The notes under the pieces are model-generated. The model was not told the origin of the DNA. It was given only the letters and a program-made list of their open reading frames with translations, and searched no databases. Positions 58,160 through 64,000 of a DNA stretch of 64,000 bases are shown piece by piece (the first letter of the stretch is position 1; the number at the start of each line of letters is the position of its first letter). A program made the position numbers and the translations under genes. The stretch is taken from positions 1 to 64,000 of the forward strand of contig JAFGOE010000107.1 in the NCBI GenBank assembly GCA_016926625.1, read 5' to 3'. The stretch is from Candidatus Zhuqueibacterota bacterium. GTDB lineage: Bacteria; Zhuqueibacterota; Zhuqueibacteria; Thermofontimicrobiales; Thiofontviventaceae.

Positions 58160-59491
58160 TTGAAATTTCCAAAAAATTTTATTTCCGGATCAAGTTTGAT
58201 ATCCGGTTCAGTCGTTATTGTCATCGCCGCGTTAATAATCTATATGTTCACACCGGTCGGTAATTACGATCAGATCGGTGATTCGGTTGTAAAATTATAT
58301 CTTGCCGACAACATATCGCCTGCTCATGAGATTATAATTCAAGCGTTTAATACCGAATATCAGGGTGAAATCGAGTTAGTCCCGATAAACCTCCCTTTCT
58401 CCAAGTTCAGCACGAATGAAAGAAAAGAGCTGCTCGCGAGAACGTTACGCAGCCAGAGCAATCGCATCGATCTGTTTACAGTCGATTTGATCTGGGTCCC
58501 TCGATTCGCGCGGTGGAGCCAACCTTTGGACAGTGTATTCACGAGCGATGAGCGAGATCGGATACTCGAGCCGGCGTTGTATTCATGTTACTTCAATGAT
58601 CGATTGTATGCGATACCACTCTATTTCGATGTGTCGTTGATGTACTATCGTAAGGACATCGTGGCCAGGTTGACAGATAGTGAAGGCGTGATTGAAAGAT
58701 TAGAACGTTCGATGACATGGGAGGAGATGATCGAATTATGCAGACAATTCCCATCGCATCATGGCTATCATTTTTTGTTTCCGGCAAATAATTTTGAAGG
58801 TCTTGTGTGTTGTTTCCTCGCCGGACTCGAGAGTCAGGGTGCGTCTATTTTTTCGGGTGACTCCATTCAGTTATGCACGAAAGAGGCGGAACGTTCGTTG
58901 CAGATATTAATCGATTTGGTCAACAAATACCAGCTAACCCCATCTCTTGTCACCAAATGCAATGAATATCAATGTTATTTGAAGGCGAATCAGGAGGATG
59001 CGATCTTCTTCCTGGGATGGCCGGGATTAAAAAAGTATTTTGAAGGTTTTATAGGACATCCTGAACGGGCGGAAAACCTTGGAATCGCAGCTCTGCCTCA
59101 TTTAGACGGAGGGGTGCCGGCACATGTGTATGGCGGATGGAATCTGATGGTATCGAAGCACACAGACTATTTTGATGCTGCTATCCAATTTATACGATTT
59201 GTTCAACGACCTGAAAATCAGAAAATTTTATATAGCCTTTGCGGCTATCTGCCAGTTATTAAGGAGGTCTACACGGATTCGGCATTTGTGGCGGAGGAAC
59301 CGGATCTGGCTTATTATCAGTACCTGTTGAGGATGGGATTTCATCGACCTTATTTGACGGATTATACTAAGATCTCGGACTATATATCGTATTATCTGAA
59401 TTTAGCGATTAAAGGAGAAATGAGCGCGACCAACGCGCTGACGAACGCGACTAAATCGATCAACTCGGATAAAATCATAAGTAATTATTAA
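58160..59491 (+). CDS. Membrane-anchored family 1 extracellular solute-binding protein
   Basis: 443 residues from TTG 58,160 (GAGGTG 8 nt upstream). An N-terminal hydrophobic helix (about 14-30) with no lipobox would anchor it to the inner membrane facing the periplasm. The rest has the SBP_bac_1 pattern: VVKLYLADNISPAHEIIIQAFNTEY, DLFTVDLIWVPRFARW, YAIPLYFDVSLMYYRKDIV, MTWEEMIEL, HVYGGWNLMVSKHTD and ENQKILYSLCGYLPV. These proteins bind sugars for ABC importers, but no ABC permease or ATPase gene is nearby. It is followed by a sensor kinase (16 bp) and a response regulator, so I infer that it is a receptor for the kinase. Confidence 0.85.
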   Translation: MKFPKNFISGSSLISGSVVIVIAALIIYMFTPVGNYDQIGDSVVKLYLADNISPAHEIIIQAFNTEYQGEIELVPINLPFSKFSTNERKELLARTLRSQSNRIDLFTVDLIWVPRFARWSQPLDSVFTSDERDRILEPALYSCYFNDRLYAIPLYFDVSLMYYRKDIVARLTDSEGVIERLERSMTWEEMIELCRQFPSHHGYHFLFPANNFEGLVCCFLAGLESQGASIFSGDSIQLCTKEAERSLQILIDLVNKYQLTPSLVTKCNEYQCYLKANQEDAIFFLGWPGLKKYFEGFIGHPERAENLGIAALPHLDGGVPAHVYGGWNLMVSKHTDYFDAAIQFIRFVQRPENQKILYSLCGYLPVIKEVYTDSAFVAEEPDLAYYQYLLRMGFHRPYLTDYTKISDYISYYLNLAIKGEMSATNALTNATKSINSDKIISNY

Positions 59492-59507: not shown

Positions 59508-60986
59508 ATGGGTGCTAACGTTCCGACAGTCGAAAATAAGTATCATTTCAAATTAAAGCATCTTTTTGCTCTGCTGGCCATTCTGGTTACCTTTCAGATT
59601 TTAGTCTCGCTTGTACATAGGCTGTCATTAAAGAACTTAATGCTCAAGACACAAGGGTGGTATCAACAAGATTTTGCAGAACGACTGGCTAATTTAACCA
59701 CGACTTCTCTCGAAATGCTCATGGAGACGACGCTATATGATCAAACCGGAGAGCATGCGGATACGACGAAGATCGTCAAGGCGTTCAACATCATTCTCAC
59801 ACAACAACTACTACAACATCATGTGGAAGAGGTGTGTATATTAATTTGCAGAGATGATTCGATTTACGCCATTGATAACGGACATATCTTGTTTTCCTAT
59901 ATCATGCATCCTGAGCGGCGACTCGAAGCAGGGGCACAGAGACATATGCAAGCGGTTAAGATGTACCGGGAGAATCGAAGTGAGATCATACGGACTGAAC
60001 AGATACTCAGCATTGTGGAACAGGAGCAGATCTTCCATGTTCTGGTACCACTGGTGCCCAAAGGTGAGTTTTTTGGCGTCGTTTACGTGAAGAGCAAGCC
60101 GGATTTCGGTTTTATGACGAGGGGAATCATTTCGAGTTACGACGAGTCGAGTCTGATCTTTACAGCCCTTATCCTGTTCGGATTATTAGCGATGTTTTAT
60201 ATCAGTACCTATACGGTGCGAGAGAGAAACGAGGCGCAACGATTATTATACGAGGAGAAGACGAAGCAGCTCACAGAACACATTAATCTGCAGAAGGAGG
60301 CGTTGTTCGCTAAACGCATCTATCACACCCACCACAAGGCTGAAAAGGTCATGGGATTCATCAAAGAAGATTTGCATGATTTGAATGAGAAAAATATGGA
60401 AGAGATCAAATATCGGGTGACCAAGTATGCAAACTTTATATCCCGGGTCATCTACGATATGAAATTATATGAACCTCCCCTGCAGACCATCCGTAATCCG
60501 ATCTTCAATACCGATTTAAATGAATTGATTCATTTCATCGTGGAGAACATATTCTTGCGGTTGTCGGCGAGTCGCGATATATTTAATTTTGACTTCGACT
60601 TCGATGAGCGTTTACCCTATGTCCACGTAAATGAATTCGTAGTCTGGGAGGTTATTGAACCGCTCATTCAGAACAGCATTGAGCATTCTGGAAAGGAACG
60701 CATCTCCATCGTTATTCAGACTCGTTTTGATGAGGAATCCGGAGAAATAAAGGTCAGGATCAGGGACAATGGAGTGGGTGTAAAAGAGGAGTTAATGCTG
60801 ACCAATGAGGATGGTATTAAGATGTTGTTTTTGGAAAATGTGTCCACCAAGACCAATGCGCAACAAAAAGGGTATGGTTGTTATATCGCCTATGAGATTG
60901 CCACTCAACGATGTGGTTGGCAGATCGATGTCCGCAATATAGAAACCGGGGGATGTGAATTCACCATTACAATACCCAATCTTTAA
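59508..60986 (+). CDS. Membrane-bound sensor histidine kinase
   Basis: 492 residues. Membrane helix 1 (about 17-37), a periplasmic sensing part (about 38-210), membrane helix 2 (about 214-236), then a coiled coil and a kinase core. The phospho-acceptor region KRIYHTHHKAEKVMGFIKEDL is unusual compared with the standard HExxxP box. The ATP-binding domain is normal: N-box EVIEPLIQNSIEHSG, G1 DNGVGV, G2 KGYGCYIAYEIA. The next gene is its likely partner response regulator. Its periplasmic half has no recognised PAS or Cache signature by eye; direct contact with the SBP encoded just upstream is proposed. Confidence 0.88.
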   Translation: MGANVPTVENKYHFKLKHLFALLAILVTFQILVSLVHRLSLKNLMLKTQGWYQQDFAERLANLTTTSLEMLMETTLYDQTGEHADTTKIVKAFNIILTQQLLQHHVEEVCILICRDDSIYAIDNGHILFSYIMHPERRLEAGAQRHMQAVKMYRENRSEIIRTEQILSIVEQEQIFHVLVPLVPKGEFFGVVYVKSKPDFGFMTRGIISSYDESSLIFTALILFGLLAMFYISTYTVRERNEAQRLLYEEKTKQLTEHINLQKEALFAKRIYHTHHKAEKVMGFIKEDLHDLNEKNMEEIKYRVTKYANFISRVIYDMKLYEPPLQTIRNPIFNTDLNELIHFIVENIFLRLSASRDIFNFDFDFDERLPYVHVNEFVVWEVIEPLIQNSIEHSGKERISIVIQTRFDEESGEIKVRIRDNGVGVKEELMLTNEDGIKMLFLENVSTKTNAQQKGYGCYIAYEIATQRCGWQIDVRNIETGGCEFTITIPNL

Positions 60987-61005: not shown

Positions 61006-62454
61006 ATGAGCACAATGAAAATCTCTGTATTACTGATTGAGGATGAAGAATTTGACGTGCAGCGGATTCGCAGAACCATTAATCCGTTCAAACATCGCAT
61101 CATCATAGAAGATGTTGTAGCAAGTGGTATTTCTGCGGTTGAATTGCTTGAAAAAGAGACACATAAATATGATGTCATCATCATGGATTATCAGATTGCG
61201 GGTGGGCTTATGGGAGAGAATCTCATCAGGCGCATAAAAGAGATTAACCCGTTGTTGCAGATAATCGTCGTTACTAAGATGACTATCAATATGACTGATT
61301 ACGATTTTGCCAACCGGATGCTGGAAGCAGGGGCGACGTGGTATTGTACGAAATATCCAGGCGATATCGAGGAGTTCATTTATCAACCTACCGATTTTAT
61401 TTTAAACATATTCAATGCCTGGGAAAAGAAGAAACTGGAGACCGAAAAAATACATTCCAAACGCCAGTTACAGCAGAATATCGATGATATCCTGAACCGG
61501 AATCAAATCATCGGCAGATCTAAAGCCATCACAACGCTAAAGGAGCAGATCCGTCGGTTTGCAGGTTCTGATGTCACTGTTATCATACGTGGCCCTTCAG
61601 GCACCGGGAAGGAACTCGTCGCCACGCATATCCATTATCATGGTAAACGAAAATTTGAAAATTTTATTCCGATCAACTGCGGCAGTTTACCTGACAACCT
61701 CATCGAAAGTGAACTGTTTGGTTTTGAAAAAGGGTCGTTTACCGGTGCGAATAAAGATAAATTAGGACTTTTTGAGGTGGCCAATAGAGGTACTGTATTT
61801 CTTGACGAGATCACAGAGCTTCCTTATACACTTCAATCGACGTTGCTCAGAGTGATACAGGAGGGAGAGATCGATAAGATCGGCCGTACTAAAAAAGTGG
61901 AAGTGAAGGTTCGTATCATCGCTGCTACGAACAAAGATTTGGAGAATGAGGTAAGAGAAAAACGTTTCCGCGAGGATTTGTATTATCGATTAAATGTCGT
62001 ATCCATTCCTATTCTGCCGCTGGAGCAGCGTAAAGAAGACATTCCGTTATTGATCGATCACTTCATGTCCCGGTTCGGCAGGGACATGAACAAGGAGATC
62101 CCGGAGATATATGCTGAGGGGTATCATGTGTTGAGTCATTACAAATGGCCGGGCAATGTCAGGGAACTTCAAAATGTGGTGCAACGATTATTATTTTTGA
62201 ATAAAAGAAGAATTGTTGAAAAAGATGTTTATATGGCCCTTGGCGTGAGAATCGATACCGATGAGACCAGGGATGTGGAAGCAATCGGGATATCGTCTGA
62301 GATAATTCCATGGCGTGACAAAGAACGGCGATTGAAACGGCAATATTTTGAACACGTCAGACAGCACACGTCGTCTGATGCCGAAGCGGCGCGGAAGCTG
62401 GGTCTGGCTCCTCCAAATTATTATCGCATGTGTAAAGAGCTGGGGATAAAATGA
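61006..62454 (+). CDS. Sigma-54-dependent response regulator, NtrC family
   Basis: 482 residues in three parts. Receiver domain (about 5-130): LLIEDEEFDVQRIRRTI, phospho-acceptor Asp61 in IIMDYQIAGG, and Thr/Lys in VVTKMT. AAA+ domain (about 160-400): IIGRSKAITTLKEQI, Walker A GPSGTGKE, FEKGSFTGANKDK (GSFTGA variant of the sigma-54 contact loop), Walker B GTVFLDEI, and sensor/arginine-finger region REKRFREDLYYRLNV. C-terminal Fis-type helix-turn-helix: SDAEAARKLGLAPPNYYRMCKELG. It should activate transcription from -24/-12 promoters. The nearest such site is 376 bp downstream, in front of the symporter gene. Confidence 0.96.
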   Translation: MSTMKISVLLIEDEEFDVQRIRRTINPFKHRIIIEDVVASGISAVELLEKETHKYDVIIMDYQIAGGLMGENLIRRIKEINPLLQIIVVTKMTINMTDYDFANRMLEAGATWYCTKYPGDIEEFIYQPTDFILNIFNAWEKKKLETEKIHSKRQLQQNIDDILNRNQIIGRSKAITTLKEQIRRFAGSDVTVIIRGPSGTGKELVATHIHYHGKRKFENFIPINCGSLPDNLIESELFGFEKGSFTGANKDKLGLFEVANRGTVFLDEITELPYTLQSTLLRVIQEGEIDKIGRTKKVEVKVRIIAATNKDLENEVREKRFREDLYYRLNVVSIPILPLEQRKEDIPLLIDHFMSRFGRDMNKEIPEIYAEGYHVLSHYKWPGNVRELQNVVQRLLFLNKRRIVEKDVYMALGVRIDTDETRDVEAIGISSEIIPWRDKERRLKRQYFEHVRQHTSSDAEAARKLGLAPPNYYRMCKELGIK

Positions 62455-62715
62455 AGGGATGAGGATCCGATTTGCTAAATGGAATGACGTATGAGGCCGA
62501 TGGCGCTTTCACAAAGGAATATATAGATATGGATGCGGCGTGAGATGGTCGAAACGATTCCGGTGAGCATGTGGGCAATCGAGTCTGTAATTGAAAGATG
62601 ACGGCAAAGGCCAACAGCAAGATTCATAGTCTAAAGCGTAAAATAATAGTCATAAACTGGGGATTTGACTAAAGCGGACTTTGAAAAAATGATTATATGT
62701 TATTGTTTTAATAAT

Positions 62716-62736
62716 TTATTATTAATCTAATAATAA
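62716..62736. promoter_or_regulatory. Candidate enhancer site 1 for the NtrC-type regulator
   Basis: Perfect inverted repeat TTATTATTA-ATC-TAATAATAA, 9-bp arms with a 3-bp centre. Its centre is about 104 bp upstream of the GG of the -24 element. In such AT-rich sequence, chance palindromes are common, so the case rests on position. Confidence 0.45.
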
Positions 62737-62738
62737 AA

Positions 62739-62757
62739 TATTATTGAATTAATAATA
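62739..62757. promoter_or_regulatory. Candidate enhancer site 2 for the NtrC-type regulator
   Basis: Perfect inverted repeat TATTATT-GAATT-AATAATA, 7-bp arms with a 5-bp spacer. It shares the TTATT / AATAA half-site core with site 1 and is centred 22 bp further downstream, i.e. about two helical turns. Confidence 0.4.
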
Positions 62758-62829
62758 AGAGAGCTTTCGATTTATGAAAGGGGTGATATAATTAAATAAT
62801 AAACAATAACTTGTAAATATATATGATTT

Positions 62830-62845
62830 TGGTATGTTTGTTGCA
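62830..62845 (+). promoter_or_regulatory. Sigma-54 (-24/-12) promoter of the symporter gene
   Basis: TGGTAT, 5 bp, TTGCA at 62,830-62,845. It has the invariant GG and GC elements at the exact 10-bp separation and a full TTGCA -12 box; only two of the -24 positions (C to T) depart from TGGCAC. Transcription would start near 62,856, 22 nt before the TTG start codon. Confidence 0.7.
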
Positions 62846-62877
62846 TTATTGTAACGAACATAAAATCGGGGTCAAAT

Positions 62878-64000
62878 TTGCATCAATTTCCGATGTTCGA
62901 TCAGATCATAATTCTTTCCTATCTGTCAGTAATTCTCGGAATAGGATTTTACATTTCGAGATTTGAAGGGGATGAGAACGATTATTTCCTGGCGGGCAGG
63001 CGTATGAGATGGATGACCATCGGTGCTTCGCTTTTCGCAGCCAGTGTTTCGGGTGAGCATTTTATCGGACTATTCGACCTTGGGGCAATATATGGTTTTC
63101 AATTCGGCCATATCGAATTGATCTCATGTTTTATGTTATTGATCCTCTGTTACTTCGTATTACCCATCTATTTAAGAGCCGGCATCTCTACTGTTCCTGA
63201 ATATTTAGAAAAACGTTTCAGCAAACCGAGCCGTATATACCTCAATGTTATTTCAATGTTTACCTATATAGTGACAAAGATATCCGTCACACTCTTTGTC
63301 AGCGGATTCTTATTGCATAAAATATTGGGTTGGGATATTAGTAAGTCAGCGATCATAATCATCATCGTCTCCGGGATGTATGCGATCCTGGGAGGATTCA
63401 AGACGATTATCAAGATCGATGTCATCCAATCGGCGGTGTTGATCTCCGGTATGGTTCTCCTGATGATTTTCAGCGTAAAGGCGATCGGTGGTTTCAATGC
63501 TCTGCAGTCAGCGGTTCCCGGTGAATATCTATGTATCTGGAGCAGGCAGAGGTTAGATGATCTACCGCTGGCGGGTCTTATCGTTGCCATACCGATCATC
63601 GGATTTTGGTATTGGTGCACGGATCAATTTATCGTGCAGCGAGCCTTAAGCGGTAAAACGGTACAGGACGCACAGCGTGGTACCATTCTGGCTGGATTTT
63701 TCAGAGTATTGCCGATATTTTTCTTTCTCTTACCCGGAATGATATCTCATGTCGTGTTACGACCTGCGAACGGGAACGGAAGTTTTATTTTCGCCACCCT
63801 GGTGATGAGTCAGATAATACCCACCGGTGTAAAAGGTCTGGTAGTGGCTGGTTTATTAGCCGCATTGATGTCCTCCCTGGCGAATGCGTTGAATGCCTGT
63901 TCCGCCCTGTTCACCCTGGATCTCTACAAACAGCTCAAACCGGGTGCAAGAGGAAGTGAGCTGGTTTTGGTGGGACGGTTAATCACGACTGCACTCGTCA
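62878..64000 (+). CDS. Sodium:solute symporter (SSS family), N-terminal part, cut by window end
   Basis: 374 codons are visible and the frame is open at the window edge. The start is TTG 62,878 with GGGGT 5 nt upstream; ATG 62,893 is the alternative. The protein reads as an SSS/SGLT transporter: helix 1 DQIIILSYLSVILGIGFYISR, then DYFLAGRRMRWMTIGASLFAASVSGEHFIGL (the usual YFLAGR..W..IG.SL.A...S), STVPEYLEKRFSKPSRI, YAILGGFKTIIKIDVIQSAVLISG, and FWYWCTDQFIVQRALSGKTVQDAQRGTILAGFFRVLP (usual YWxxxQxxVQRxLaakn). SGLT-like members carry sugars with Na+. Driven by the sigma-54 promoter just upstream. Confidence 0.93.
   Translation, partial: MHQFPMFDQIIILSYLSVILGIGFYISRFEGDENDYFLAGRRMRWMTIGASLFAASVSGEHFIGLFDLGAIYGFQFGHIELISCFMLLILCYFVLPIYLRAGISTVPEYLEKRFSKPSRIYLNVISMFTYIVTKISVTLFVSGFLLHKILGWDISKSAIIIIIVSGMYAILGGFKTIIKIDVIQSAVLISGMVLLMIFSVKAIGGFNALQSAVPGEYLCIWSRQRLDDLPLAGLIVAIPIIGFWYWCTDQFIVQRALSGKTVQDAQRGTILAGFFRVLPIFFFLLPGMISHVVLRPANGNGSFIFATLVMSQIIPTGVKGLVVAGLLAALMSSLANALNACSALFTLDLYKQLKPGARGSELVLVGRLITTALV

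Follow-up and report, generated by a model that had tools for sequence, protein, structure and literature searches.

The segment at positions 62,700-62,845 of the window (the whole 64,000-nt stretch of DNA that was analyzed) holds, with high probability, the enhancer and promoter for an operon that depends on sigma-54 and would be run by the sugar sensor cluster encoded upstream of it. The locus very likely serves to switch an operon for polysaccharide uptake, and the whole is best read as a three-component, sigma-54-dependent polysaccharide-utilisation regulon. The circuit thus looks wider than the one in the preliminary description, which had considered a single symporter gene. The host is an uncultivated bacterium, very probably of the KSB1 group, whose genome assembly comprises 3.61 Mb in 134 contigs and is 85% complete. 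The features of interest are the following:

58160..59491, + strand: gene for a sugar-type extracellular solute-binding protein (SBP; SBP_bac_1/8, Pfam) with a hydrophobic N-terminal anchor
59508..60986, + strand: membrane histidine kinase gene (HATPase_c, Pfam; H273 and H276 invariant)
61006..62454, + strand: NtrC-type response regulator gene (receiver with D61, sigma-54 AAA+ domain with GSFTGA loop, C-terminal HTH)
62700..62714, no strand: third dyad, TTATTGTTTTAATAA, full consensus
62719..62733, no strand: dyad 1 of the conserved pair, TTATTAATCTAATAA, candidate regulator site
62741..62755, no strand: dyad 2 of the conserved pair, TTATTGAATTAATAA, candidate regulator site
62830..62845, + strand: -24/-12 sigma-54 element, TGGTATGTTTGTTGCA, from pattern search and ortholog promoter comparison
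62878..63999, + strand: gene for an SGLT-like sodium:solute symporter of 541 aa, continuing past the window end

The regulator is encoded by the final gene of a conserved cluster that brings together a sugar SBP, a histidine kinase and an NtrC-type regulator, and this gene order is kept at all ortholog loci with enough flanking sequence. The nearest solved relatives of the SBP are trehalose/maltose-binding proteins; its gene is retained upstream of the kinase gene in the orthologs, and we propose that its product is the sensor subunit. No HisKA match was obtained for the kinase in the Pfam scan. Its orthologs have in common the motif KRIYHTHHKAEKVMGFIKED and two invariant candidate histidines, H273 and H276, which make up an unusual H-box. 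The regulator carries the receiver aspartate, Walker A and B motifs, a GAFTGA-like loop (GSFTGA here) and a C-terminal HTH. Alignment of its orthologs revealed conservation of the receiver aspartate, the Walker motifs, the FTGA loop (FT in 62 of the 62 sequences having letters at that position) and the recognition helix, APPNYYRMCKELGLK, which is near-invariant. The host genome also contains an rpoN gene, and RpoN was detected in 21 of the 23 genomes that have the regulator, the remaining two being 56% and 67% complete.

The -24/-12 element claimed in the preliminary description is present on the + strand at 62,830-62,845. It reads TGGTAT-GTTTG-TTGCA, with GG at -24, GC at -12 and 10 bp between the two dinucleotides, and the strict pattern TGGYAYN5TTGCA has 20 matches in the host genome versus 3 for the reversed control. 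Transcription is predicted to start near 62,856, i.e., 22 nt ahead of the TTG start codon of the symporter gene at 62,878. This gene, proposed to be the first of the target operon, encodes an SSF protein that its best solved relatives assign to the SGLT group.

Upstream of the promoter, three 15-bp dyads at 62,700, 62,719 and 62,741 match the consensus TTATYRNNNYRATAA. The centers of dyads 1 and 2 lie 104 and 82 bp ahead of the -24 T, at a distance of 22 bp from each other, which agrees with the position and the spacing of about two helical turns reported earlier; the midpoint of the pair lies 93 bp before the -24 element. Paired dyads at this place would correspond to an NtrC-type enhancer. 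The two inverted repeats had initially been described as perfect and AT-only: both are there, but a third dyad with the full consensus lies 19 bp from dyad 1, and only the outer arms are free of G and C, as the centers hold one C or one G. Among 2000 dinucleotide shuffles of positions 62,691-62,830, none gave a pair at 24 of 24 consensus positions, and 22 positions were reached by 2 shuffles only. One concern had been that such dyads might be common in the AT-rich DNA of this genome. The exact pair occurs at a single site genome-wide (control matches, 0), and allowing up to three mismatches added one weak match beyond this locus, at control level. None of the other 19 strict -24/-12 loci of the host genome has such a dyad pair.

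The search with the regulator yielded 52 loci from named genomes, and 23 of 60 genomes (the host plus 59 relatives) proved to have orthologs. The dyads might equally have been absent from orthologous promoters, which was the other concern. After removal of duplicates, 63 ortholog loci were left, and in 30 of these a dyad pair followed the regulator gene within 500 bp, whereas shuffling each locus 100 times gave an expectation of 0.0. Nine loci (L055, L067, L070, L073, L074, L078, L079, L091, L096) carry a pair, also or instead, before a more distant SSF gene. The other 33 loci, which include some on contigs ending early, have no pair within 500 bp of the regulator; in 5 of them it is located elsewhere in the locus, and for several orthologs from Ignavibacteria and Bacteroidetes it was found nowhere in the fetched loci. 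In the 51 distinct pairs the centers are 20-24 bp apart, with 22 bp in 34 of them; the scan admitted this range only, and a wider one (15-70 bp) returned the same range.

Across the 60 genomes, the pair is present in 18 of 23 with the regulator versus 1 of 37 without it (Fisher p = 6e-10). The five regulator-positive genomes without an exact pair include cases of near matches (L048 and L102 for G004, L114 for G033) and of single dyads (L118-L120). A control pattern for the pair had 0 matches across 119 genomes. This co-occurrence, together with the near-invariant recognition helix, supports the local circuit with the adjacent regulator suggested at the outset, and we infer that this regulator binds the dyads. 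Many orthologs without a nearby pair have APSN or other changes in the recognition helix, although the correlation is not strict, since L065 has the APSN helix and the pair. In the regulators of several Bacteroidetes/Ignavibacteria MAGs (L075, L080-L083, L088, L093, L095) the helix is of the APSN type and the fetched loci contain no pair; these may use a different operator.

The geometry of the promoter is conserved as well. For 44 of the 51 pairs, the gene side has a -24/-12-like element at a distance of 70-95 bp, and the 93 bp seen in the window is the commonest value. The best -24/-12 score found 60-110 bp away had a median of 11.8 on the gene side versus 0.7 on the other, and scores of at least 10 were reached by 38 pairs versus 0; the side had been picked by the better score, so that the Wilcoxon p-value is inflated. 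As an independent check, the chosen side was that carrying the SSF or GH reading frame. Helical phasing between pair and promoter is weakly supported (Rayleigh p of about 0.03 at 10.5 bp and 0.006 at 11 bp).

A strict -24/-12 expression lost most ortholog promoters because many of them have T or A in place of the -12 C, and a weighted scan recovered them. In the 44 promoters the G of the -12 element is present in all, an invariance partly built in, as the scoring weighted this G strongly and admitted bases other than C next to it; the C position holds C in 10, T in 19, A in 14 and G in 1. Summed over 21 regulator-bearing genomes, TGGYAYN5TTGCA had 408 matches versus 67 for the control, and the TTGTA variant 342 versus 122. 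Given this genome-wide enrichment of TTGTA, the class as a whole seems to tolerate T at the C position; this T is not peculiar to the regulon, although it is more frequent there. In the RpoN of the host genome (L021:1492-2937) the HTH reads MDISTVSRVT and the RpoN box ARRTVAKYRE is kept. The arginine that we take to match R383 of E. coli is retained, while the residue presumably matching E378 (E. coli numbering) is I, and this I is possibly linked to the relaxed -12 C.

With regard to the target genes, those behind the promoters encode SGLT-like symporters, beta-glycanases (GH16, GH3, GH5, GH9, GH2), carbohydrate-binding T9SS proteins and TonB receptors. Scanning 49 proteins encoded by the first genes behind the pairs gave 19 SSF, 7 GH3, 6 GH5, 6 GH2, 5 GH16 and 2 GH9, besides others. 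Past the window, the same strand continues (L150:2289-17117, contig C127) with genes for a CBM9/T9SS protein, a TonB receptor, a large T9SS-like protein (its T9SS-tail match is weak), a PorV-like protein, GH18, a second SSF symporter and GH20, and this is likely a polysaccharide-uptake run. In a family-level relative (L153), the promoter heads a run of SSF, CBM9/T9SS protein, GH16 and TonB receptor genes that equals the window's run except for the enzymes. Such targets, together with the run in this relative, argue for a regulon serving the uptake of what glycan breakdown releases. Among the targets, beta-glucans are the most frequent theme, and the host's own run has the chitin-type GH18 and GH20; the ligand is likely an oligosaccharide of the beta-glucan type.

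Sequence and comparison document the elements with their spacing and conservation, the way in which they co-occur with the regulator, and the target genes. From these we infer the nature of the ligand, a phosphorelay, binding of the regulator to DNA with looping, and a joint transcript for the downstream genes. The periplasmic sugar-binding protein would signal the oligosaccharide to the histidine kinase, which would phosphorylate the NtrC-type regulator. The latter would bind the TTATYRNNNYRATAA dyads, which stand in tandem at a distance of about two helical turns, and by looping its AAA+ ring would reach the RNA polymerase-sigma-54 complex at the -24/-12 element, about 90 bp off, and melt the promoter. 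The output would be the SGLT-like symporter, followed by the carbohydrate-binding T9SS protein, the TonB receptor and, in the host genome, the GH18 and GH20 enzymes.

It could be argued that the dyads serve another regulator and that the -24/-12 element is driven by a different sigma-54 activator, of which the host genome encodes about 20. Three genomes (G035, G061 and G103, the last from an unrelated phylum) do contain the pair with no detectable orthologous regulator. We consider this unlikely, as the presence of the pair across genomes tracks the adjacent regulator, in 30 lineages the pair lies directly behind its gene, and the remaining strict -24/-12 loci of the host are devoid of it.

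The position of the palindromic repeats behind the regulator stop codon might also suggest a role as RNA, for instance in terminating the regulator operon or as hairpins within an mRNA. However, positions 5 and 11 are non-complementary in 45 of 102 dyads and still keep the Y/R pattern, which fits a protein site and not a hairpin; the arms are almost without G-C pairs and no terminator is predicted here. We thus rejected this role, to which the narrow distance between pair and promoter and the pairs before SSF genes far from the regulator are also opposed, and we regard it as very improbable. A fortuitous -24/-12 match in AT-rich intergenic DNA is the least credible explanation and hardly deserves any weight: the segment is indeed AT-rich and one-mismatch -24/-12 matches are frequent within the window, but the shuffles, the uniqueness in the genome and the conservation in orthologs at the same spacing refute chance. 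Control by the adjacent NtrC-type regulator is therefore the reading we retain.

A three-component system, CuaDSR of Ruminiclostridium cellulolyticum, controls a neighboring operon for the uptake of sugars produced when polysaccharides are hydrolysed (PMC10384115). The present locus shares with it a sugar SBP gene beside a histidine kinase and a response regulator, and the adjacent sugar uptake operon (PMC10384115). It differs in that its output relies on an NtrC-type sigma-54 activator and paired enhancer dyads, uptake is assigned to an SGLT-like symporter with TonB/T9SS parts instead of an ABC importer, and the phyla are not the same. Owing to the class of the target transporter and the NtrC-type regulator, we do not file it as a member of CuaDSR; the system is best read as one that would work like CuaDSR at its input and like NtrC at its output. 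Common to NtrC/NtrB systems are the receiver, AAA+ and HTH domains, the -24/-12 element and a pair of dyads placed some 80-140 bp upstream at a mutual distance of about two turns, while the sugar-binding-protein input, the polysaccharide hydrolysis and uptake targets and the TTATYRNNNYRATAA consensus, which tracks this regulator, are distinct. Regulators of the CelR and LevR type are PRD/PTS-regulated activators without an SBP and histidine-kinase input. Those of Bacillota sugar PTS operons resemble the present case in the sigma-54 control of sugar uptake, cellobiose included (PMC10864463, PMC6615313). In CbrA/CbrB of pseudomonads, an NtrC-type regulator is likewise tied to an SSS-family protein and to carbon use, but the SSS domain is inside the kinase, whereas in the present system the symporter has a target gene of its own and the SBP is the proposed route of sensing (PMC7918813, PMC6296734).

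No description of such a regulon in these phyla was found in the literature searched, mostly freely accessible papers. The architecture as such is known, but the sugar-sensing regulon seems not to have been described. On balance, we lean toward an undescribed class of three-component polysaccharide sensors in KSB1, Calditrichota and Ignavibacteria-like lineages, in which a sugar-binding protein is coupled to a sigma-54 enhancer-binding regulator that switches whole glycan-uptake operons (SGLT symporter, GH16/GH3/GH5/GH9, CBM/T9SS proteins, TonB receptor) from promoters with a relaxed -12 C. Such a regulon would represent an alternative, based on sigma-54, to the SusR/HTCS logic found in Bacteroidetes. 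For almost entirely uncultivated phyla, the analysis provides an operator sequence, a promoter geometry and a regulator for polysaccharide use, and the operator can be used to predict co-switched glycan genes in metagenomes. Finally, the full pair in the genome from the unrelated phylum that lacks the regulator (L130, G103:C7:88320-88358) has a 24-bp spacing and is flanked on one side by an amidohydrolase-like gene that has a -24/-12-like site 114 bp away; it is either due to chance or the site of another regulator.
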